Shown here: one piece after another, positions 11,436 through 59,068 of the stretch
How positions within the stretch are numbered: the first letter of the stretch is position 1
Layout: the number at the start of each line of letters is the position of its first letter
Source: Haloferax mucosum ATCC BAA-1512
Lineage (GTDB): Archaea > Halobacteriota > Halobacteria > Halobacteriales > Haloferacaceae
DNA: 64,000 bases
Assembly: GCF_000337815.1 (NCBI RefSeq)
Contig: NZ_AOLN01000006.1
Location: 248,001 to 312,000, forward strand
Reading direction: 5' to 3'
Program-made: the position numbers and the translations under genes
The notes under the pieces: model-generated
Told to the model about the DNA's origin: nothing
Databases searched by the model: none
The model's input: the letters and a program-made list of their open reading frames with translations, nothing else

Positions 11436-12666
11436 GCGACATCGCCTCCAGTGTCGGGGTTCGCCACGTGAGCCACGCAGGATACACGGACGAGACGAGA
11501 CCGATGGCGGCCGCGACCGCGACGCTGTAGCCGACGAGAATCGGGTCGAACAGCGCGACCTGCACGCCGAGTAGCTCCTGTGTGAGCGCGTTCGTCAGGA
11601 AGATGCCGCCGATACCGGTGACGACGCCGACGACCCCGCCGATGGTGGCGACGATGACCGTCTCGGCGACGACGAGGAGGGTCTGCGAGCCGGTTCGATA
11701 GCCCATCGCCGAGAGGACGGCGAGGTTGCGGCGGTCGGCGTTGACTTCGAGTCCCATCATGGTTGCGACGAAGAGGACGCCGACGAGGACGGCGACCGTG
11801 AGCGAGACGGCGGCCATGGCAAGCGGGAGACTCGACGTGGACGCGCCGCGGACGGCGAGGCCGGTCTGCGTGACGACAGAGGTTCGCGGGTACAGACGCT
11901 CGATATCGGATTTCACGCCCGCGGTGTTCGTGCTCACGAGCAGTTGGTCCGCGAGGTCGCCCGAGGTCGACCCGGTCATCGTCTGGAGTTCCGAGAGGTG
12001 GACGAGCGCGACCGGAACGGGACCCACCCCGCTCGAAACGTCGCCTTGCCGAACGTCCGCGACCGTGAACGTCGCCCGCGAGTTGCCGACTTCGGCGGTT
12101 ACCTCGTCGCCGGCGGAGACGCCCAAGAGTTCCGCGCCGGCCTCGTTGAGCACGAGTTCGCCGGTTCGCGGTCCTTCGTAGGTGCCGTTTGCGTAGTGCG
12201 GGTCGCCCGGTTCGAGCGCGTCCGTGGGAACACCGACGACGGTCGTCGGCTCTTCCGGCGGGATGATACCCGCGGCGAGGATGAATTCGTCCGTGCTCTC
12301 GTTGTCGCCTGGTGCCAGCCTGACGAGTTGCGTCTGGACCGGCGTCGCGTACTCGACTCGCTCGTCTTGGTCGAGTCGCGCGGTAATCTCGTGGGTGTTT
12401 CCGAGTTGTGGACTGCCGACAGAGACCGCGACCGACGAGGCGGTGCTCGCCTCGGGGACGACCCAGTAGTCCACGTCTTCGCTTTGAATCGCGTTCTCCG
12501 CGCCCATGCCGAGTGCGATGCCGCTGACGGTCGTCATCAGCGTCACCGCGAGCGCGACGCCGACGACGCTCAACAGAACCTGTTTGGACGAGGACGTCCG
12601 CAACCGACCGAGGACGCGCCGAACGGCGAGACCGAGGATACCGAGCAGTCGGTGTCGCCTAGGCAT
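11428..12666 (-). CDS. ABC transporter permease, FtsX/MacB type
   Basis: 412 residues with the same plan as its neighbour: one N-terminal helix (VLLSVVGVALAVTLMTTVSG), an extracytoplasmic core of about 220 residues with glycosylation sequons (NESTDEF, ANGTYEG), and three C-terminal helices. It overlaps the ATPase gene upstream and the second permease downstream by 8 bp each, showing tight coupling. The two permeases share the PHYANGTYEGP-like core motif with modest similarity elsewhere, so they probably arose by duplication. Expected to form a MacB-like complex with the ATPase. Confidence 0.85.
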   Translation of the reverse strand: MPRRHRLLGILGLAVRRVLGRLRTSSSKQVLLSVVGVALAVTLMTTVSGIALGMGAENAIQSEDVDYWVVPEASTASSVAVSVGSPQLGNTHEITARLDQDERVEYATPVQTQLVRLAPGDNESTDEFILAAGIIPPEEPTTVVGVPTDALEPGDPHYANGTYEGPRTGELVLNEAGAELLGVSAGDEVTAEVGNSRATFTVADVRQGDVSSGVGPVPVALVHLSELQTMTGSTSGDLADQLLVSTNTAGVKSDIERLYPRTSVVTQTGLAVRGASTSSLPLAMAAVSLTVAVLVGVLFVATMMGLEVNADRRNLAVLSAMGYRTGSQTLLVVAETVIVATIGGVVGVVTGIGGIFLTNALTQELLGVQVALFDPILVGYSVAVAAAIGLVSSVYPAWLTWRTPTLEAMSHD

Positions 12667-13417
12667 CGCTCACCACGATACCGTCGCGGAGTCGGATAAC
12701 GCGGTCGGCGCGGTCGATGACGTGGTCGTCGTGGGTTGCGACGACGACCGCGCGCTCTGAGGCAGTCTGCTCGATGTAGTCGAGGACGCGCTGGCCCGTC
12801 TCCGTGTCGAGTTCGCCGGTCGGTTCGTCCGCGATGAGGACCGCCGGGTCGGACACGAGCGCCCGCGCAATCGCCACGCGCTGTTGTTCGCCGCCGGAGA
12901 GTTCGCCCGGTTTGTGCCCGGCGCGGTCGCCGAGACCGACCTGTTCGAGCAGTTCGTCGGCGCGCGCCCGCCGGTCTCGTTTGGAGACGCCGCGTTCGAT
13001 AAGCGGAAGCGCGACGTTGCCGCGGGCCGAGAGCGCGGGCAACAGGTGGAAATGTTGGAAGACGATACCAATCGTGTCGCGTCTGAGTGTCGTCCGCTGA
13101 CGAGAGGACAGCGAACGCACGTCGGTTCCCGCGACGGTCACGTCGCCGGTCGTCGGGGTGTCGAGCGCGGCGAGGAGGTGCAACAGCGTCGATTTGCCGC
13201 TCCCGCTCGGGCCGGCGATGGCGACGAACTCGCCGGTCGCAATCGACAGCGAGACGCCGTCGAGAGCGCGAACCGTCGGCGCGTCACCCCCGCGGGAGAA
13301 AAGCGAGTCGCGTCCGCGCGAGTACTCCCGGGCGACGCGCTCACAGCGGAGGGCGGTCGCCGGGTCGGCCGCGTCGGCGGCGGGACGAGAACGTTGTTCG
13401 GAGACCGAATCAGCCAT
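12659..13417 (-). CDS. ABC transporter ATP-binding protein, MacB/LolD type
   Basis: 252 residues from the ATG at 13417 ([13 protein letters not shown]); an upstream ATG at 13444 overlaps the promoter. Walker A is GPSGSGKS, the signature is [15 protein letters not shown], Walker B is [12 protein letters not shown], and the H-loop is VVATHD. GTLD-type MacB/LolD ATPases power FtsX-like permeases, and two such permeases follow with 8-bp overlaps. A TATA box (13442-13449) and a 13-bp palindrome (13451-13463) lie upstream, suggesting specific control of this export operon. Confidence 0.9.
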
Positions 13418-39632: not shown

Positions 39633-42167
39633 TTAGCGACCGGTCGAAGAGTCGTACTCGGAGAGTCGCGTCGAAATCTGGTCGTCCATCTGCGTGAGCA
39701 CGCGGTCGAGGTCGCGTCCGTCGAAGAGTTCGGACAGTCCCTCGGAGATAATCGTTCGAGCGGTCGTAAACGGTCCGATGCGGGCACCGCGGGTGGCGGG
39801 CGAATCGGTGCTCTCGGCCAACTGCTCGAATGCGACCGCGAACTCGGGTTGTTCGTCGAACCAGCCGTCGCGGTCGAGGTGTCGTTTCGTCTGGCTGTGA
39901 ACCGGGAAGTACCCCGTCTGGCGGTGCCAACGGGCTTGCTGTTCCGGTTGCGTGAGCCACGCGAGGAACTCGCCCGCGGCGGCCTGTTCTCGGTTCGAAA
40001 CGTCGTCTGCGACCCACAGCGAGGCCCCGCCGACGACGACGCCCGAGCGAGACCCGGGTGCCGGGAGTTTGCCGACCTTGGCGGTAAAGCCGTTCGCGTC
40101 CGCGCCCTCGATGACCGACATCGTGCTCGAACTGGAGTCGATGAGCATCGCCGCTTTTCCGTCGAGGAACGCGTCCCGTGCCTCGCCGCGCGCCTCGACG
40201 CCGGGGTCGTACAGGAGACCGTTCTGTTCGAGGTCGCGCCACCACCCGAAGACGGTTCGCGCGGTCTCGCTGTCGAAGTTCGCCCGTTGTGCGGTGCCGC
40301 GGCGGCCGTTTTCGGCGTCGAAGAGACACTCGCCCGCGGCCGCGAACCACTGCTCGATGAACCAACTGTAGTTGGCCCACGTCGCCCCGTAGGGAGTCAC
40401 ACCGTTCGTCGTCAGTTCCGCCGCGACGCTCGTCACCTCGTCTAGCGTCTCCGGCGGCGAGTTCGGGTCGAGTCCGGCACGGCGGAACGCGTCCGCGTTG
40501 TAGTACAACACGGGATTAGACGCATTGAACGGCATCGACCAGAGCGTCCCGTCGTGGCGGTAGTAATTGGCGAGTTCGGGTACGAGCGAGTCCGCAGACG
40601 CGGTTCCGGGAAGCACCGATTCGACGGGTGTGAACTCGCCGCTGTCGAGCGCGCGCTGTGTACCGATTTCGTAGAGTTGCGCAATCGTCGGCGGCGTTCC
40701 GGACCGCGCGGCGGCGAGCGTCGCATCGAACGTCCCGCGGTAGTTCCCTTTCGCCGACGTCTCGACGCGGATGTCGTCGTGTTCGGCGTTGAATGTCGAG
40801 ACCAACGAATCCAGCAACATCGCCTTCGACCCCGACATGGCGTGCCAGAATCGGACGACCGTCTGGCCGGTTCGGGTCGTCGTCTCCGAATGTAACCGAT
40901 AGTCGTCGATGGTTTCTTGAAGCGCGTCTGCCTGCTCGGTGAGGCTATTGATTTTGGTCACCGCTTCTGACAGCGAGACGGTCTGTCTCCGAGCCGACCC
41001 CGCGACCTCGGTCGCTTGCGCGGCGGTTTCTTCGCTGATAGCGCCGACGTCGTCTGCCTGATTGACGACCTCTTGGGACGTCGCCGCCTGCGAATCCGTC
41101 GCGTCGCTAATCTCGTGGACGCTACTGTTGGTCTCGTGGATGTCCTCGACGACGCTATCGAGCGCGAGAAGCGCGTCTTGGATGGTCTCGCTTCCGTCTT
41201 CGATTCGGCGTTTCGTGTCCGTGATTTCATCGACCGTTTCGACCGACTGGGATTGGACCGCCTCGATTGTCGTCTCGATGTCGTCCGTCGCAGACTGCGT
41301 CTGCTCGGCGAGCGACTTGACTTCCTCTGCGACGACGGCGAATCCTTCGCCCGCCTCGCCGGCGCGGGCCGCCTCGATAGAGGCGTTGAGCGCGAGGATG
41401 TTCGTCTGTTCGGCGATGTCCGAAATCTTCGAGGCGATGCCCGTAATCTCCCGGATGTGCTGGTTGAGCGTCTCGACCTGTTCGACCGTCGCGTTGGTCT
41501 GTTCGCTGATTGCGTCGAGTTCTTCGATTGCGTTCTCGGCGGCCTGTTTTCCCTGCTCGCCCCGCGTGACCGCCTCGTCTGTCGAGTGTCTGATTTCGTC
41601 CGCGGACGCCGCGACCTCCTCAATCGTCGCCGACAAGTTTCGCATCTCGTCTGCGACTTCATCGACGCTGTTGCTCTGCTGTCGCGCGCCGGTTGCGATA
41701 TCATCGACCGATTCTGCGACCGTTCGACTCTCGGTCCGACTGTCTTCGACCGAGTCCGCGACGACCTCGGTCGATGCCGCGACCTGCTCTGCGAACGCAT
41801 CGACGTTGCGTATCGAAGCCTGCATCCCCTCGAACAGTTCGTTGAGTAGTCGCGCGTGGCGTTCGAGCGCGGGGTCCTCGGGGATATCGACGCGGACGGT
41901 CAGGTCGCCGTCGATACATCGGGCGACCGCGTCCGAGAGTTCGTCGAGTTGCGCTTTCGATGCACCACTCGTGGCGTGTTCGTGTGGCCCCCCGTCGCCC
42001 TCGCGCGCGAGGACAGTCTTACCGTCGTGTGGCAGAGACGCCGGTGGGCCGTCTGCTTCACCCCGCTTCGAGTCGTCCGTGTCCGACGTGTCGTTCGTGA
42101 CGAGTGCTGTTTCGAGGGCCGCCCGGACCGATGACAATTGGTGTCGAATTCGGTCGTCACTGTTCAT
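39633..42167 (-). CDS. Soluble chemotaxis transducer fused to a UgpB-like binding protein
   Basis: 844 residues, no signal peptide, no membrane span. Residues 1-70: variable acidic head. About 70-125: HAMP-like helices ([11 protein letters not shown]). About 125-430: MCP signalling coiled coil with the hairpin tip [20 protein letters not shown] (249-268) that binds CheA/CheW. About 435-840: a complete solute-binding protein of the UgpB class ([16 protein letters not shown] at 473-476, YEIGT at 499-503, [22 protein letters not shown]). Residues lining the glycerol-3-phosphate pocket in UgpB appear present. With both halves in the cytoplasm it could sense an internal metabolite. glpK lies 2.3 kb away. 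Divergent from a TBP gene. Confidence 0.88.
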
Positions 42168-42352: not shown

Positions 42353-42922
42353 ATGATGTCGCACGAAGCTCGTCTCGAGTCTCTTGAGATTCAGAACGTC
42401 GTCGCCTCCACGGCCGTCGGTCAGGAGTTAGACCTCGAATCGCTTTCGATGGACCTCGTCGGCGCGGACTACGACCCGGACAACTTCCCCGGACTCGTCT
42501 ACCGGACACAGGACCCGAAAGCGGCAAGTCTCATCTTCCGCTCCGGCAAAATCGTCTGCACCGGCGCGAGCAGCGTCGATGACGTTGACCGCGCGCTCGA
42601 ACAGGTCTTCGGAGAGCTGAGTAAGCTCGGAATCCCGACTGACGACCGCGAAGAAGCAACGATTCAGAACATCGTGTCGAGCGCCGACCTCGGAACGACG
42701 CTCAACCTGAACGCGCTCGCTATCGGACTTGGTCTCGAAGACGTGGAGTACGAACCCGAGCAGTTCCCCGGTCTCGTCTACCGAATCGAAGACCCGAGCG
42801 TCGTCGTTCTGATGTTCGGCTCCGGTAAAATCGTTATCACGGGTGCGAAGCAGGTCGAACACGCGCGCGAAGCGATTAACGTCGTCACCGACGAAATCGA
42901 CGCGCTCGGCCTGCTCGGCTAA
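42353..42922 (+). CDS. tbp: TATA-binding protein (TBP)
   Basis: 189 residues (an ATG one codon later, 42356, is equally possible). Two imperfect TBP repeats (about 8-92 and 100-184), each with the PDNFPGLVYR / PEQFPGLVYR core and the SGKIV strand that inserts into the DNA minor groove (FRSGKIVCTGA, FGSGKIVITGA). Haloarchaea carry several TBP and TFB paralogues; sequence alone does not say whether this is the main one. Its promoter has CTTTAAG at 42324-42330, correctly placed for a leaderless start, and a nearer TATATAAAAC at 42337-42346 that TBP itself might bind. Confidence 0.95.
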   Translation: MMSHEARLESLEIQNVVASTAVGQELDLESLSMDLVGADYDPDNFPGLVYRTQDPKAASLIFRSGKIVCTGASSVDDVDRALEQVFGELSKLGIPTDDREEATIQNIVSSADLGTTLNLNALAIGLGLEDVEYEPEQFPGLVYRIEDPSVVVLMFGSGKIVITGAKQVEHAREAINVVTDEIDALGLLG

Positions 42923-44494: not shown

Positions 44495-46033
44495 ATGGTA
44501 GACACATACGTCGGTTCGATCGACCAGGGAACGACCGGGACCCGGTTTATGGTCTTCGACCACAGCGGGCAGGTCGTCGGTAACGCCTACGAGAAACACG
44601 AGCAAATCTACCCGAACCCCGGCTGGGTCGAACACGACCCACTCGAAATCTGGGAAAACACCAAGGAGGTCATCACGGCCGGACTCGACGACGCCGGCAT
44701 CGACGCGGAGCAACTCGAAGCGCTCGGCATCACGAACCAGCGTGAGACCACCATCATCTGGGACAAAGAGACCGGCAAGCCGGTTCACAACGCGCTCGTC
44801 TGGCAGGACCGCCGGACGACCGAGCGCGTCGAAGAACTCCAAGAGGCCGACAAGGTCGAGTGGATCCGCGAGAAAACGGGTCTCGAAGCCGACGCGTACT
44901 TCTCTGCGACCAAGGCTGAGTGGCTCCTCGACAACGCGGAACCGCTCAAGCTCCAAAGCTCGCGCGGCGGCAACCTCCGCAGTCGGGCCGAGGAAGGCGA
45001 ACTCCTGATGGGGACCATCGACTGCTGGCTCATCTACAACCTGACCGGCAACCACATCACGGACGTTTCCAACGCCTCGCGGACGATGCTCTACAACATC
45101 GAGGACCTCGAATGGGACGACGAACTCCTCGACGAGTTCGACGTGCCGGAAGAGATGCTTCCGGAGGTTCGACCCTCGTCCGACGAGAACCTCTACGGAC
45201 ACACGGACGCCGACGGCTTCCTCGGCGCGGAAATTCCCGTCGCGGGCGCGCTCGGCGACCAGCAGGCCGCCCTGTTCGGCCAGACCTGTTTCGACAAAGG
45301 CGACGCGAAAAACACCTACGGCACGGGTTCGTTCTACCTGATGAACACCGGAACCGAAGCCGTCAGCTCCGACCACGGTCTGCTGACGACCATCGGCTTC
45401 CAGATGTCCGGTGAACCCGTCCAGTACGCCCTCGAAGGTTCGATCTTCATCACCGGCGCGGCTATCGAGTGGCTCGAAGACGTTGACCTCATCAACAACG
45501 CCGCACAGACCGCAGAACTCGCTCGCTCGGCGGGTTCGACCGACGGCGTCTACATGGTGCCCGCGTTCACCGGTCTCGGTGCCCCACACTGGGACGGTCG
45601 CGCGCGCGGCACAATCGTTGGTATGACCCGCGGCACGCGAAAGGAACACCTCGTCCGCGCGACGCTGGAATCCATCGCGTACCAGACCCGCGACGTTGCC
45701 GAGGCGATGGAAGCCGACTCCGGCGTCGAACTGACGTCGCTTCGCGTAGACGGCGGAGCGGTCAAGAACAACTTCCTCTGTCAGCTTCAGTCCGACATCA
45801 TCCAGACGGATATCGTTCGGCCGGAAGTCGATGAAACCACGGCGCTCGGGTCGGCCTACGCCGCCGGTCTCGCCGTCGGCTACTGGGATACGGTTGACGA
45901 ACTCCGGAAGAACTGGCAGGTTGACCACGAGTTCACGCCGGAAGCGGAGCCGCAGACGGTCGATAAGATGTACGACCGCTGGCACGACGCGGTCGAGCGG
46001 TCCCGCGACTGGGCACAGGAGGAGGCGGAATAA
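44495..46033 (+). CDS. glpK: Glycerol kinase GlpK
   Basis: 512 residues, full length for a FGGY kinase. Phosphate-binding loop DQGTTGTRFMVFD (10-22); ITNQRETTIIWD with the glycerol-contact region; catalytic Asp region in GALGDQQAALFGQ near 250; ATP-site GTGSFYL and GGAVKNNFLCQLQSDI near 425. It phosphorylates glycerol to sn-glycerol-3-phosphate, the entry step of glycerol use. The next gene starts 2 bp later. In H. volcanii glpK follows the gpdABC dehydrogenase genes; here those are absent and an MDR oxidoreductase is divergent instead. Confidence 0.97.
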   Translation: MVDTYVGSIDQGTTGTRFMVFDHSGQVVGNAYEKHEQIYPNPGWVEHDPLEIWENTKEVITAGLDDAGIDAEQLEALGITNQRETTIIWDKETGKPVHNALVWQDRRTTERVEELQEADKVEWIREKTGLEADAYFSATKAEWLLDNAEPLKLQSSRGGNLRSRAEEGELLMGTIDCWLIYNLTGNHITDVSNASRTMLYNIEDLEWDDELLDEFDVPEEMLPEVRPSSDENLYGHTDADGFLGAEIPVAGALGDQQAALFGQTCFDKGDAKNTYGTGSFYLMNTGTEAVSSDHGLLTTIGFQMSGEPVQYALEGSIFITGAAIEWLEDVDLINNAAQTAELARSAGSTDGVYMVPAFTGLGAPHWDGRARGTIVGMTRGTRKEHLVRATLESIAYQTRDVAEAMEADSGVELTSLRVDGGAVKNNFLCQLQSDIIQTDIVRPEVDETTALGSAYAAGLAVGYWDTVDELRKNWQVDHEFTPEAEPQTVDKMYDRWHDAVERSRDWAQEEAE

Positions 46034-46035
46034 CG

Positions 46036-47109
46036 ATGGCAATCGTATTCGGACTCGAAGCCATCGACATTCTGGTCCTCGTCATGGCCTCGTTCGCGGG
46101 CGGCATGTTCGGTGCGTCTATCGGCGCACTGCCGGCGTTCATCTTCACCGGCTTCATGGTGCTCATCGGTGAGGCGGGCAACGTCGTCTCGAGCGAGTTC
46201 GTCGGCGGCGGCGGTCTCATCGCAGACGCCGCGGGTGGCTACGGCGCAGGTATCGTCGGACCGCTCGCGTTCGGTCCGGTGTTCGGCCCGCACGTCGCCT
46301 TCGCAGGCGGTGTCGCCGCCGCGGCCTACGCCGCAAAGTACGACGGGATGCCCGAACCCGAAGACGGTGACTACCACCCCGCAAAAGACATCGCGTACGC
46401 CCTCGGCACGCGGCCAGACATCCTCGCTGTCGGTGGTGTCTTCGGTGTCATCGGCATGGCGATTCGCCAGACCTCCGGCGGACTCGGTATTCCGATGGAC
46501 CCGCCCGCGGTCGGCGTCATCCTGACTGCGCTCCTCGCGCGCGCAGTGTTCGGATACAGCATCATCGGTTCGCCGAACGGCGACGGTATCCTCGACATGA
46601 CGCCGTTCGAACGCGGTAAGAAGCGCACGACGCTGGCGGACGGCGGAAGCACGCAGTCGTACCGACTGGCCGTCGAACCGTGGCTCCCCCACCAGTACAA
46701 ATGGAGCGGTGTTGCCACGATCGGTTTCGCCGTCGGTATCCTCAGCGCGTACATCTTCGCGCGGACCGGGAGCCTGTTCATCCCGTTCGGTATCTCCGCG
46801 GCGAGCCTGCTGTTCTTGAACCTCGGCGTCGAGAAGTTCCCTGTCACTCACCACATGGCGTTGCCGGCGACGTTCATCGCCAGCATGGTCATGATCGACG
46901 GGTCGAGCGTCCCCGTGGCACTCGTGGCCGGTGCCGCCTTCGGTGTCCTCGGCGCACTCATCGGAGAGTTCTGGGAGCGCGTGCTCTACGCCCACGGCGA
47001 CACCCACGTTGACCCGCCGGCGGCGTCCATCATGACGACCACGCTCATCATCGGCGTGCTGGCGCTCATGGGAGTCTTCTCCACGAGCGGTGCAGTTCCG
47101 CTCCCCTGA
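46036..47109 (+). CDS. Putative glycerol transporter (glpK-linked membrane protein)
   Basis: 357 residues, roughly ten hydrophobic helices with many small residues (GGMFGASIGALPAFIFTGFM). It begins 2 bp after the glpK stop, so it is co-transcribed. In Haloferax the gene downstream of glpK is called glpX and proposed to take up glycerol; this protein fits by size and place. It is not an aquaporin-type GlpF: no NPA motif is seen. The transport role rests on context, not on a recognised channel motif. The downstream ptsH2 gene known from H. volcanii is missing here. Confidence 0.7.
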   Translation: MAIVFGLEAIDILVLVMASFAGGMFGASIGALPAFIFTGFMVLIGEAGNVVSSEFVGGGGLIADAAGGYGAGIVGPLAFGPVFGPHVAFAGGVAAAAYAAKYDGMPEPEDGDYHPAKDIAYALGTRPDILAVGGVFGVIGMAIRQTSGGLGIPMDPPAVGVILTALLARAVFGYSIIGSPNGDGILDMTPFERGKKRTTLADGGSTQSYRLAVEPWLPHQYKWSGVATIGFAVGILSAYIFARTGSLFIPFGISAASLLFLNLGVEKFPVTHHMALPATFIASMVMIDGSSVPVALVAGAAFGVLGALIGEFWERVLYAHGDTHVDPPAASIMTTTLIIGVLALMGVFSTSGAVPLP

Positions 47110-47158: not shown

Positions 47159-48361
47159 ATGAATATAGAATCGAGAATCAAGCGACGACAACGCCGAGAC
47201 GGCGAGCAACGCTTGGTTCTGGACTACGAGCCATTGTCCCCGACCACGCATCTCGACGAACCGGTCAACTGCGGACCGGTTTTAGAGCGACTGCTCGACC
47301 ACATCGACCCAGTGTTCGACGGCACGCTCCCGCCTAACGCGTACCTCTACGGTCCAAAGGGAGCGGGCAAATCGGCCGTCGTGACGACGCTTTTCGAACG
47401 CCTGTCGTGTCTCTCGACGACGAACCACGCGGCGATTCACACGACGACTCGCGTTCGGGCGACGTTCTCTCCGGAATTCGTCTACGTCGATACGCGACAG
47501 ACGACGAGCGGGTTCGCGTTTTATCACGCTGTGTTGGACGCCATCGTGGACGACGACATCCCGAGACAGGGCGTCAAGACCGAGACGCTCCAATCGCGGC
47601 TTCAACAGGTGTTAGAGCGCCCGAAATCTGGGGTGGTACTCGCGGTTGACCACCTCGGCGAACCCGGAACAATCGGTGACTCGGAGTTCATCGACATCTG
47701 CGCCGGCCTCCCGAGCAACATCAGTTGGATTGCGATTTCGCGGACGGAACCGTCGGAGACGCCGTTGACCGACTACACCGCGGCGCAGATAGAAATCGAG
47801 CGCTACCAGCGCCAAGTGCTGGTTGACGTGTTGATGACGCGAGCTTCGGCCGGCGGCTCTCGGCAGTCATTAGACCACCGTCTCGCCTGCGACATCGCAG
47901 ATTGGGCCGACGGTGACGCTCACGATGCGCTCGCCGCGCTGTTCGGTGCGGCCGATAGCGCGATGCTCAATCAGCACGCGACGATAACGGCCGCGGACGT
48001 CAACGCCGGTATCGAGGCTGTCCCGCGACCCGGTATCTCACTCGGGCGCGCGTTCGCGTTGCCGACGAATCGCCAGCGGGTGCTCAGGCATCTGCTCGAA
48101 CTACAGACCGACCAACCCGATTCCGTGCGAGAGGCGAGCGAACGCATCTCGGAGTCGGTTTCCCTCTCGGCCGCGACGATCAAGCGCATCCTCTACGAAC
48201 TCGCCGAAGACGGCATCGTGAGACGCGTCACTGCCGAGCGAACGAATCGAAAAGGGCGACCACCGAGTCGGCTCGAACCGTGTTTCCCGACGGTCGTCTT
48301 CGAGCGGTTGTTCGCGTTGAACTACGCGACGAAGCTCTCGGACGCGGCGCAGGCGCAGTAG
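47159..48361 (+). CDS. Orc1/Cdc6-like AAA+ ATPase with degenerate Walker B
   Basis: 400 residues. AAA+ domain about 35-275 with Walker A GPKGAGKS (65-72) and a C-terminal winged helix (about 310-395). It aligns in plan with Orc1/Cdc6 initiators, but Walker B is VVLAVDHLGE, with His165 in place of the catalytic Glu of the usual DE, so ATP hydrolysis may be impaired. The initiator-specific motif could not be found. Haloarchaea encode many orc genes, several without a nearby origin. The 49 bp before the start holds an ATTATTTAG-like promoter; no origin repeats were seen. Confidence 0.75.
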   Translation: MNIESRIKRRQRRDGEQRLVLDYEPLSPTTHLDEPVNCGPVLERLLDHIDPVFDGTLPPNAYLYGPKGAGKSAVVTTLFERLSCLSTTNHAAIHTTTRVRATFSPEFVYVDTRQTTSGFAFYHAVLDAIVDDDIPRQGVKTETLQSRLQQVLERPKSGVVLAVDHLGEPGTIGDSEFIDICAGLPSNISWIAISRTEPSETPLTDYTAAQIEIERYQRQVLVDVLMTRASAGGSRQSLDHRLACDIADWADGDAHDALAALFGAADSAMLNQHATITAADVNAGIEAVPRPGISLGRAFALPTNRQRVLRHLLELQTDQPDSVREASERISESVSLSAATIKRILYELAEDGIVRRVTAERTNRKGRPPSRLEPCFPTVVFERLFALNYATKLSDAAQAQ

Positions 48362-55383: not shown

Positions 55384-55450
55384 GTGCCCGTAATACATAT
55401 TACTATTTTGAGATATGTTTGAAATATACTACTATATAATCATTCATAAC

Positions 55451-55458
55451 GTTTATAC
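55451..55458 (+). promoter_or_regulatory. TATA box of the phosphonate-type transporter operon
   Basis: GTTTATAC, 29-36 bp before the ATG at 55487, which supports that start over the ATG at 55466. Confidence 0.55.
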
Positions 55459-55486
55459 CGAATGTATGTCTCAATGGAATACACTA

Positions 55487-56632
55487 ATGCCCGAATTCGA
55501 CCACACGAGACGTTCACTACTCGCTAGCGGCGCGGCGGCCATCTCTCTGGGCTTCGCAGGCTGTATCCAGAGCGGTGGCGGCGACAGCGACGGCCAATCC
55601 AACGAGTCTACGACTGGCTCGGACAGTTCGTCCGAGGGAGGCGACGGCGCATCGAGCTTCGACCCGGCGAATCCCGAGTTCCCGCAACCGATGGCGACGC
55701 TCATCAGCGCCGGGTTCGAGACGGGGTCGCTTTCGGACCTCGAAAACATGGAAGAGCGGGAAAAGCCCCGCTACGGGAAGCCAGTCAAGGAGACGCCGTC
55801 GAAAGAAAGCGAACTCCTCGACCCCGACAAACTCGCGTTTGCGATGACGCCGTCCGAGGACCCGGCGGCCTACCGGACGACGATGAAGCCGCTCATGGAC
55901 AACATCGCCAAAGAGACCGGCAAGGAAGTCGAATACTTCCCGCTCCAGTCGTACGCGTCGCAGGTCGAAGCGATGCGCTCCGAGCGACTCCACATCGCCG
56001 GATTCTCTACGGGACCGACGCCGTTCGCCGTGAACCTCGCCGGTGCCGTGCCCTTCTCCCTGCAGGTCTCCGGAGAAGGTGACTTCGGCTACCGCCTCTG
56101 GCTGGCGACGCAGGCCGACAACGACGACATCAACTCGCTTTCGGACCTGCAGGGCAAGCGCGTCGCCCACTCCGAACCGTCGTCGAACTCCGGCAACCAA
56201 GCGCCCCGCGCGCTCTTCGCCAATCAGGGCGTCGTCCCCGGCGACGACTACGAAGTCGCCTACTCTGGCGGTCACGAACAGAGCGTCCTCGGCGTCGCCA
56301 ACGGCGACTACGACGCCGCACCCGTCTGCAGTACATGCGTGACGCGTGTCGCAAACGCCGGGAACCTCGACCCCTCGAACATCAAGGTCGTCTGGGCGAG
56401 CAATCCCTTCCCGACGACGAGCTTTACGTATCGTTACAACCTCACGCCCGAGATTCAGGAGGGTATCCGGGCCGCGTTCACCGACTACGACTACTCCGAC
56501 ACGCAAATCGCAGAGACCTTCGAGGGGCGCGGCAAGTTCACCGAAATCGACTACGCGACCGCTTACGACATCATCCTCCAGATTCAGGAGAACAACGGTG
56601 TCGAGTACCAGACGGACAACCTCGGGGAATAA
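55487..56632 (+). CDS. phnD: PhnD-type phosphate/phosphonate-binding lipoprotein
   Basis: 381 residues from the ATG at 55487 (MPEFDHTRRSLLASGAAAIS). Twin Arg and a lipobox LGFAGC (Cys26) predict Tat export and lipid attachment. After a Ser/Gly linker the PhnD fold starts near 115 (KLAFAMTPSEDPAAYRTTMK) and includes the family stretches KRVAHSEPSSNSGNQAPRAL and GGHEQSVLGVANGDYDAAPV. PhnD proteins bind phosphonate, phosphite or phosphate. It heads a four-gene operon with the ATPase and two permeases; no C-P lyase or phosphonatase gene is present, so phosphate or phosphite is as likely as phosphonate. Confidence 0.92.
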   Translation: MPEFDHTRRSLLASGAAAISLGFAGCIQSGGGDSDGQSNESTTGSDSSSEGGDGASSFDPANPEFPQPMATLISAGFETGSLSDLENMEEREKPRYGKPVKETPSKESELLDPDKLAFAMTPSEDPAAYRTTMKPLMDNIAKETGKEVEYFPLQSYASQVEAMRSERLHIAGFSTGPTPFAVNLAGAVPFSLQVSGEGDFGYRLWLATQADNDDINSLSDLQGKRVAHSEPSSNSGNQAPRALFANQGVVPGDDYEVAYSGGHEQSVLGVANGDYDAAPVCSTCVTRVANAGNLDPSNIKVVWASNPFPTTSFTYRYNLTPEIQEGIRAAFTDYDYSDTQIAETFEGRGKFTEIDYATAYDIILQIQENNGVEYQTDNLGE

Positions 56633-56650
56633 TCCACACCACCCAGTTCA

Positions 56651-57445
56651 ATGCTGACCGTCAACGACATCAAAAAAGTATACGATTCCGGCGACCAGGC
56701 CCTGAAGGGCCTCTCGATGGAAGTCAGTGGCAACGAAATCGTCTCGATTATCGGGCCGAGCGGGGCGGGGAAGAGTACGCTCATCCGCTGTATCAACCGT
56801 CTTACCGAGCCGTCGAGCGGCGAAGTGTGGCTCGGAGACACCGAGATTACGGCCCTGTCGAGCAAGGAACTCCGCAAGGCCCGCCGCGATATGGGGCTAA
56901 TCCACCAGGAGTTCAACCTCGTCGAGCGCCTGACCGTGATGGAGAACGTCCTCTCGGGGCGGCTGGGATATATGAGCACACTCGACGCCTTCCGGCGTAA
57001 CTTCGACAGTGAAGACATCGCCAAGGCGAGAGCGGTTCTACGTCGCGTCGGACTCGAAGGCGTCGAAAACGACCGCGCGGACGAGCTCTCGGGTGGCCAG
57101 CGTCAGCGCGTCGGCATCGCCAGAGCCGTCATCCAGCGTCCGAAAATCCTCCTCGTTGACGAGCCGACGAGCGCGCTCGACCCCGAGACGTCGATCGAGG
57201 TGATGGACCTACTGACCGAAATCGCGCGCGAAGACGACATCCCGGTCCTCATCAACATCCACGAGGTCGATCTCGCAACCGAGTACGCAGACCGCGTCGT
57301 CGGGCTGAGCGACGGCGAACTCGTCTTCGAGGGCGACGCCGACGAACTCGACGAACGCGCCAAAGACATCATCTACCGCGACGGCCAATCGCGCGAAGAA
57401 CGCGACGCCGCCAAAGCGGAACAGCAAGCGAGCGCGGGGGAGTAA
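56651..57445 (+). CDS. phnC: Phosphonate-type ABC transporter ATP-binding protein PhnC
   Basis: 264 residues. Walker [17 protein letters not shown] near 38, Q-loop GLIHQEFNL, signature [15 protein letters not shown] near 141, Walker [15 protein letters not shown]-loop NIHEVD. Membrane-associated ATPase that energises the two PhnE permeases. It begins 18 bp after phnD and 3 bp before phnE, so all are one transcript. All catalytic residues look intact. Confidence 0.95.
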
Positions 57446-57448
57446 GCG

Positions 57449-58261
57449 ATGGCGACCAGGTCCGACGTGGCCGACGGCGAATGGGAGCGCCCGACCGCCT
57501 TCTACAATCGAACGACGAAGTACCTCGTCTACACCGCCGTCGTCGCGTTCGTCCTCTATAGCCTCTGGAGCATCGGCATCCCGATAGACCGGTTCCGCCG
57601 CGGTATCGGGGCCGGTATCGACCTCGTCTCGAACATGCTCCCGCCGGCGTTGACGCCAGTTCAGTTCGAACTGATGGTACAGGGAATCGTCGAGAGTATT
57701 CTCATGTCCATCGTCGCCACGACGCTCGGCATCATCGTCAGCGCGCCCGTGGCGTTCATGGCGGCCAACAACCTCGCCCCGCGGCCGGTCTACTTCGTCG
57801 GGCGCGGCATCATCGCCGTCTCGCGGTCGTTTCACGAACTCATCGTCGCCATCGTCATGGTGAAAGCGGTCGGGTTCGGCCCGCTCGCGGGCGTGCTCGC
57901 CCTCGGGTTCAAGACGGTCGGCTTCTTCGCAAAGCTCCTCTCGGAGGAAATCGAGGATATCGACACCGGACAGATGCAAGCTATCGAGGCCGTCGGCGGC
58001 AGTCGCATGCAGGTGTACCTCTACAGCGTGCTCCCGCAGATTGTCCCGCGCATCATCGGCCTGTCTATCTACCGCCTCGACATCAATCTGCGACATAGCA
58101 CCGTCGTCGGCATCGTCGGCGCGGGTGGTATCGGTATCACCCTCCTGAACTCGTTCCAGAAGTACGACTTCCAGTACAGTTCGATGATTATCCTCGTCAT
58201 CGTCGGCATCGTCATGATCGGTGAGGCCGCGAGCGCCTACGCCCGACGGAGGGTCCAATAG
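57449..58261 (+). CDS. phnE: Phosphonate-type ABC transporter permease PhnE
   Basis: 270 residues with six membrane helices (first about 25-43). The permease coupling segment is at about 180-200: EAVGGSRMQVYLYSVLPQIV. It starts 3 bp after phnC and its stop is immediately followed by the next phnE start. Two PhnE permeases in tandem imply a heterodimeric channel. Confidence 0.93.
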   Translation: MATRSDVADGEWERPTAFYNRTTKYLVYTAVVAFVLYSLWSIGIPIDRFRRGIGAGIDLVSNMLPPALTPVQFELMVQGIVESILMSIVATTLGIIVSAPVAFMAANNLAPRPVYFVGRGIIAVSRSFHELIVAIVMVKAVGFGPLAGVLALGFKTVGFFAKLLSEEIEDIDTGQMQAIEAVGGSRMQVYLYSVLPQIVPRIIGLSIYRLDINLRHSTVVGIVGAGGIGITLLNSFQKYDFQYSSMIILVIVGIVMIGEAASAYARRRVQ

Positions 58262-59068
58262 ATGTCGAGTGAATCCTCGGACGCGGGCGCGCAGTGGGAG
58301 CGGTTCGAACCCCGCGAGCGCCTGCTTCGGTATCTCGTCACGCTCGGCGCGTTGGTCGTCCTCGCCGCCTCGTGGCGGGCGATGGACATCAACTACGGCT
58401 ACGTCGCGTCCGCGCCCCAAGAAGTGATGGACCTCTTTACGCGGATGTACCCGCCGAACGTGATGTACACGCGGGAAATCGCCCGCCCGCTCCTCGAAAC
58501 GATCAATATCTCGATTCTCGGAACGGCACTCGCAATCGTCATGGCGCTTCCGGTCGCGTTCCTGAGCGCCAGCAACACGACGCCGAATCGAGCGACGTAC
58601 CTGCTCGGGAAGTTCATCGTCTCGTTCACGCGGTCCGTGAACGTCATCATCTGGGCGCTCATCTTCGTCGCGGTGTTCGGACCCGGCGCGCTCGCCGGCG
58701 TGCTGGCGATTGCCGTCCGGTCTGTCGGATTCACCGCGAAACTCCTCGGCGAAGCCATCGAGGAGATAGACCCCGGCGAAGTCGAAGCTATCAGAGCAAC
58801 CGGCGCATCGACACTCCAGACGTTCATCTACGGCATCGTGCCGCAGATCAAGCCGGCGTTCATCAGCGTCGCCACCTTCCGCTGGGACATCAACGTGCGC
58901 GCGTCAACCATCATCGGATTCGTCGGCGCGGGCGGCATCGGCGTCGCCCTCCAGACGAATATTAACTACTTCAAGTGGGACGCCGTGCTCACGATTCTCA
59001 TCGCCATCCTCGGCATCGTCCTCGTCAGCGAGGGTGTCTCGGCGTACCTCCGCAGAAAGGTAAGCTAA
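58262..59068 (+). CDS. phnE: Second PhnE-type permease
   Basis: 268 residues, six helices. Coupling segment IRATGASTLQTFIYGIVPQI near 185-200. It is clearly homologous to the preceding permease (EEID(T/P)G(Q/E), IVGAGGIG / FVGAGGIG) but not identical, so the pair is an old duplication. The ATG directly follows the upstream TAG. Last gene of the phn operon. Confidence 0.93.
   Translation: MSSESSDAGAQWERFEPRERLLRYLVTLGALVVLAASWRAMDINYGYVASAPQEVMDLFTRMYPPNVMYTREIARPLLETINISILGTALAIVMALPVAFLSASNTTPNRATYLLGKFIVSFTRSVNVIIWALIFVAVFGPGALAGVLAIAVRSVGFTAKLLGEAIEEIDPGEVEAIRATGASTLQTFIYGIVPQIKPAFISVATFRWDINVRASTIIGFVGAGGIGVALQTNINYFKWDAVLTILIAILGIVLVSEGVSAYLRRKVS

Follow-up and report, generated by a model that had tools for sequence, protein, structure and literature searches.

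A cytoplasmic haloarchaeal chemoreceptor with a UgpB-type binding domain and its candidate link to glycerol phosphate

The receptor gene, its parts and its topology

The window, by which we mean the whole 64,000-nucleotide stretch of DNA that was analysed, is part of contig C6 in a 3.37-Mb genome whose genus includes Haloferax larsenii, and it encodes a chemoreceptor of 844 residues in a single ATG-started frame with zero internal stops. The initial annotation had described this frame as an MCP signalling region fused to a UgpB-class binding domain, and the Pfam search recovered both halves, with MCPsignal (PF00015) at residues 207-374 (E 1.4e-42) and SBP_bac_8 at residues 455-758 (E 9.6e-43), where SBP_bac_1 also matched. 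The MCP-tip and binding-domain motifs that it quoted are likewise present in the translation. The gene and its parts are as follows.

39633..42167, minus strand: whole gene of the cytoplasmic MCP-UgpB fusion chemoreceptor, from the open frame (stop included) and Pfam MCPsignal and SBP_bac_8
41982..42167, minus strand: N-terminal tail, residues 1-62, one short helix followed by a low-confidence segment (model pLDDT 30-55)
41802..41981, minus strand: probable HAMP-like segment, residues 63-122, modelled as a helix (63-85), a GDLTVRV connector and a helix from residue 99
40905..41801, minus strand: MCP signalling hairpin, residues 123-421, from PF00015 and the model helices (99-421)
41343..41420, minus strand: hairpin tip with the CheA-CheW contact region, residues 250-275, from invariant columns in the orthologue alignment
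40866..40904, minus strand: 13-residue linker from the hairpin return helix to the binding domain, residues 422-434; in the model the helix stops at 421 and the first strand of the binding domain starts at 436
39636..40865, minus strand: UgpB-type binding domain, residues 435-844, from the 4aq4 match, the AlphaFold2 model, Foldseek and pocket mapping

We found no signal peptide, Tat motif, lipobox or membrane helix in the window receptor, as had been claimed from the sequence. The highest Kyte-Doolittle mean over 19 residues is 0.81, far from membrane hydrophobicity, and an in-frame stop sits 3 codons before the ATG, which rules out a longer N-terminus concealing a signal. A location of the binding domain outside the cell was also rejected, because none of the orthologues has a hydrophobic, membrane-type stretch between the MCP part and the binding domain while contact with CheA requires the MCP tip to be in the cytosol; the binding domain is therefore cytoplasmic. 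Several orthologues (L055, L056, L060, L062 and L065) have hydrophobic N-terminal stretches. In these the same cytosolic sensor is probably anchored to the membrane and, judging from their sequences, their binding domains must still be cytoplasmic.

A HAMP match exceeds the Pfam cut-off in orthologue L076 (27.7 bits), falls just under it in L055 and is not significant in the window protein. Twelve columns of the tip, T255, N256, L258, A259, L260, N261, A262, I264, A266, A267, G273 and G275, are unchanged in 32 orthologues, and a scan of the hairpin for methylation-type motifs returned one strict motif at residues 179-188. The full-length model, which is monomeric, has a pLDDT of 74 and a pTM of 0.56, with the MCP half at low confidence and too weak for signalling geometry. 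A TATA-binding protein gene (42353-42922, plus strand) is divergent from the receptor gene, with ~185 bp between the two.

Spread and origin of the fusion

To define the distribution of the fusion, 391 genomes of the class were surveyed for the C-terminal domain inside frames of ~800 residues or longer, and at least 66 of them, from 14 genera and 3 families, carry it. A scan of named genomes placed the fusion in Haloferax larsenii, Halobiforma, Halohasta, Halonotius, Halorubrum and Haloarcula; in the same scan it was not found outside the haloarchaea, and the bacterial relatives returned were free binding proteins. Forty fusions were extracted and 32 of them aligned end to end. One further locus, L078 (genome G054), has the fused frame and lies outside the alignments, the gene finder having missed it. 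In the tree, the fused binding domains form one clade (SH-aLRT 100) adjoining the free haloarchaeal UgpBs, so a single origin of the fusion is the simplest reading. Purifying selection acts on both halves: over ten close pairs, dN/dS is 0.09-0.23 in the binding domain and 0.05-0.22 in the MCP part. The concern raised in the initial annotation, that a frameshift or misassembly had joined two genes, is thus refuted: 40 orthologues share the junction, at least 66 genomes have the fusion and selection maintains it. Its absence from relatives, also named there as grounds for refutation, is contradicted by the same survey.

Two apparent variants were discarded. A 2395-residue GlpK-MCP super-fusion in L098 is an artefact of a run of N, and the best plasmid matches, which would have made the fusion plasmid-borne, are annotated as ordinary ABC binding proteins.

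A UgpB-derived domain and its glycerol gene neighbours

UgpB-class binding proteins are normally kept outside the cell. Among solved structures, the binding domain of the window receptor matched E. coli UgpB (4aq4, E 2.7e-59) and Phaeobacter UgpB (E 4.5e-50) best. Its C-terminal half, modelled alone with AlphaFold2, is predicted with high confidence (pLDDT 93, pTM 0.91), and the comparison with UgpB that had been proposed at the outset came out in favor of that fold in the model, the four best Foldseek matches all being UgpB structures (6x84, 9lff and 4aq4 among them) with a TM-score of 0.94 to 6x84. Compared with the UgpB of UgpBAEC ABC importers (4aq4 and 6x84 from E. coli, 9lff from Phaeobacter), the modelled domain thus has the same fold, ~31% identity in the structural alignment and the same seven ligand residues, but it is cytoplasmic, stands behind an MCP and has one tryptophan of the ligand clamp replaced. 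Neither an export signal nor an ABC operon with UgpA/UgpE/UgpC partners was found at the fusion loci, so the domain is UgpB-derived rather than a UgpB. Free haloarchaeal UgpBs, unlike the fusions, keep Tat-type, lipobox N-termini, and the window genome's own free UgpB adjoins ABC permease and ATPase genes. Against the NCBIfam UgpB equivalog NF008211, the fusion domain scored 229.8 bits and the genome's own transporter UgpB 248.2 bits, both under the cut-off of 411.

In bacterial UgpB the phosphate is contacted by Y64, S143, S266 and Y342, the hydroxyls by E88, G303 and R393, and the glycerol moiety is clamped by W188 and W191 (PMC12718374). The equivalent residues in the window protein are Y476, S550, S678 and Y753 for the phosphate and E500, G714 and R804 for the hydroxyls; in the clamp, W191 is kept as W602 and W188 is replaced by N599. 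Loss of the pocket had been named as a weak point of the fusion reading, and the pocket appears intact in the alignment: none of the seven direct contacts varies among the 40 fusions, nor does W602, and overall these fusions are only ~45-55% identical. The two-tryptophan clamp is not retained, the W188 position being Asn or Thr in the fusions, and it is Asn also in the free haloarchaeal UgpBs examined.

The genes around the receptor connect it to glycerol metabolism in a large part of the family. Those concerned in the window are listed here.

44495..46033, plus strand: glpK, glycerol kinase, a second copy in the genome, from FGGY_N/FGGY_C and, for its Haloarcula-type relative, NCBIfam GlpK
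46036..47109, plus strand: membrane protein with no Pfam match, constant partner of glpK
47159..48361, plus strand: AAA ATPase (Cdc6-like) of the glpK cluster, from AAA_16

Neighbours were typed by NCBIfam and Pfam (GlpA, GlpB, GlpC, GlpK, an aquaglyceroporin-type MIP, DhaL, HPr and PtsI). Upon clustering, glpK was the commonest recurring neighbour of the fusion loci, and glpABC, the membrane protein and the AAA ATPase, which is near 10 fusion loci, also recurred. The fusion lies ≤12 kb from glpK in 27 of the 66 genomes and in 7 of the 14 genera, and at least 19 of these linked fusions are at 129-215 bp; in three genera, Haloarcula among them, glpK lies downstream of the receptor at this spacing, and glpABC is divergent. 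The gene order varies. In the Haloarcula type (L054), glpCBA is divergent and is followed by receptor, glpK, membrane protein and AAA ATPase, and in the Halohasta/Halonotius type (L055, L060), glpK, membrane protein and AAA ATPase precede the receptor and HPr. That the same partners recur in different orders favours a functional connection over a single block frozen in place. In the lineage of L055 and its relatives, HPr and dihydroxyacetone-kinase genes flank the receptor. In six genomes picked because their fusion is linked to glpK, there are 61 other MCPs, and glpK is near none of them. Every one of the 66 fusion genomes has glpK, and the fusion is absent from all 49 of the 391 genomes that lack glpK, a co-occurrence with a Fisher P of 1.2e-4 when the relatedness of the genomes is ignored.

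This linkage is not universal. It was found in 0 of 20 fusion genomes of Halorubrum (g2) and, in the window's own genus, in 1 of 8 fusion-bearing genomes, the window genome alone, so the window's own arrangement could be a coincidence. The initial annotation had named sn-glycerol-3-phosphate (G3P) made by the nearby GlpK as the cytoplasmic ligand; G3P stands as the leading candidate through the glpK and glpABC linkage seen elsewhere, but the local gene pair is a weaker basis, as the window glpK is 2.3 kb past the receptor start codon with two unrelated genes between and no shared operon. In the Halorubrum-type loci (L068-L081), the receptor gene occupies a different, conserved site far from glpK, between a methyltransferase-like gene (FtsJ/RlmE by eye) and a DHFR-like gene.

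In most clusters the membrane-protein gene (46036-47109 in the window, L054:12354-13427) follows glpK, and in L061 the same slot (12608-13372) holds a MIP aquaglyceroporin instead; the membrane protein is therefore probably a glycerol facilitator unrelated to MIP. The Cdc6-like AAA ATPase is a possible regulator of the glycerol genes, and the C-terminus of the L054 homologue (L054:13487-14659) is weakly similar to a winged-helix domain. The genome has a second glpK besides the window copy, at G000:C1:199975-201495. The window glpK is 87-88% identical to Haloarcula glpK versus 78% to this other copy, which suggests that it was acquired by transfer.

Ligand, signalling path and relation to known receptors

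We think it likely that the receptor is a soluble cytoplasmic MCP with a captured UgpB-type domain that senses the glycerol-phosphate pool and serves metabolism-dependent glycerol taxis. The ligand would be glycerol phosphate, most probably G3P, coming from glycerol kinase or imported; to judge from the gene neighbourhoods, G3P is the most likely candidate because the linkage is to genes that make it and oxidise it. Bacterial UgpB binds G3P at 0.80 µM and G1P at 2.36 µM (PMC12718374), and inside the cell an unmodified site with such affinities could saturate and would be unable to separate G3P from G1P; to escape saturation, a cytosolic receptor would need weaker binding. One may speculate that loss of the clamp tryptophan weakens binding, a loss that the free haloarchaeal UgpBs share.

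The ligand might instead be the lipid precursor G1P, or the summed pool of G1P and G3P, which would tie motility to lipid synthesis or phosphate status and not to glycerol use. The fusion has the contact residues of a bacterial protein that hardly separates the two compounds (PMC12718374), and the window encodes an ABC importer at 55415-59068 (plus strand), 9 kb from glpK, made up of a binding protein, PhnC, PhnE and a second permease-size frame. Its binding protein is nearest to GpxB (9lf9, E 4.4e-67, versus 6.8e-29 for PtxB), a recently described G1P/G3P-binding protein, and conserves all nine GpxB ligand residues. However, the neighbours that recur are those that make and oxidise G3P, and in other genomes the fusion has no gpx genes close by, so the idea that the GpxB-type transporter is regularly linked to it was discarded; we therefore regard a G1P or summed-pool sensor as unlikely. 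Some other small phosphate compound, for example a glycerophosphodiester or dihydroxyacetone phosphate, seems to us more doubtful still. UgpB relatives do bind glycerophosphocholine or a dinucleotide (6r1b, 7c0f), and DhaL, HPr and PtsI genes stand beside the receptor in L055 and its relatives, but the closest structures are G3P/G1P-binding UgpBs and not the glycerophosphocholine type, and the glycerol-hydroxyl residues E500, G714 and R804 are retained together with one clamp tryptophan. That the domain is a scaffold, tethering for instance a glycerol enzyme to the receptor array, would fit with its being displaced from its usual partners, but it is very improbable given that every ligand-contact residue is invariant across fusions so diverged elsewhere, which is unexpected if no small ligand is bound.

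With glycerol phosphate as the ligand, its binding is expected to close the two lobes of the C-terminal domain, which would hang on the return helix of the hairpin, at the base near the HAMP-like segment, via the 13-residue linker. Lobe closure would alter the geometry of the helical bundle and thereby the activity of the CheA kinase at the tip, CheY and CheF would relay the signal to the archaellum, and the cell would drift toward conditions that raise its cytosolic glycerol-phosphate pool, that is, toward usable glycerol. CheF is the archaeal link from the Che system to the archaellum. Since Che systems can drive outputs other than swimming, the Che-type array fed by the receptor could instead regulate gene expression or some other process, but CheW-domain proteins, two CheF and archaellins are all encoded in the window genome, and we give this option very little weight.

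The initial annotation had held that an output-first, sensor-last order requires a signalling path unlike that of transmembrane receptors. This was overstated: the hairpin is antiparallel, which brings its C-terminal helix back to the base, the point at which N-terminal sensors attach as well. TlpD of Helicobacter pylori and other MCPs with a C-terminal CZB (PMC12871147, PMC6715182) are also soluble and carry the sensor after the signalling hairpin. TlpD, of which a full-length structure is solved, has its zinc-binding C-terminal domain astride the coiled coil and relays the change in that domain to the hairpin helices (PMC12871147), so a C-terminal sensor can work, although the CZB is a small zinc-binding helical bundle and the fusion sensor a 410-residue two-lobed binding protein. 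C-terminal cytoplasmic domains are already tallied as a class in the main text of a census of archaeal chemoreceptors, which lists SBP_bac among the ligand-domain families but does not identify the SBP_bac receptors there as UgpB-like or give their ligand, gene context or mechanism (PMC9680633).

Neither cytosolic haloarchaeal receptors nor C-terminal sensor domains are new in themselves, as Car and TlpD respectively demonstrate. Storch et al. reportedly identified Car of Halobacterium salinarum in 1999 as a cytoplasmic arginine transducer. Like the fusion, Car is, as summarised in PMC3579733, a soluble haloarchaeal MCP that reads a cytosolic nutrient or metabolite; it reads arginine and the fusion is predicted to read glycerol phosphate, and the likeness is one of description that leaves the sensor regions aside. 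In the freely accessible literature, including the main text of the census, we found no account of the fusion family beyond the census counts, nothing on its UgpB identity, pocket or glp linkage, and no description of a haloarchaeal chemoreceptor for glycerol or glycerol phosphate.

The alga Dunaliella leaks glycerol, a key source of carbon in brines that Haloferax volcanii prefers (PMC12366361). A cell with this receptor would probably steer by how well its feeding on glycerol goes, and many haloarchaea carry it. On balance, we lean toward the broader view that haloarchaea once turned an exported binding protein of a transporter into the glycerol-phosphate-reading half of a cytosolic chemoreceptor, which would provide a lineage-wide energy taxis tuned to glycerol, in which the quantity measured is what glycerol kinase produces and not glycerol itself, with the input entering via the return helix. 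The family may exemplify how a binding protein can naturally change sides of the membrane barrier and be rewired for signalling instead of transport, and could serve as a model for how C-terminal sensors drive the receptor hairpin. It is also a concrete candidate that lends itself to genetics: the ligand and the pocket mutants are predicted, and metabolism offers a clear test. ABC-type binding proteins are used in haloarchaeal chemotaxis by BasB/BasT and CosB/CosT of H. salinarum as well (PMC3579733), but BasB and CosB are separate, putative periplasmic proteins working with a membrane transducer, whereas the binding domain of the fusion is covalently attached and intracellular.
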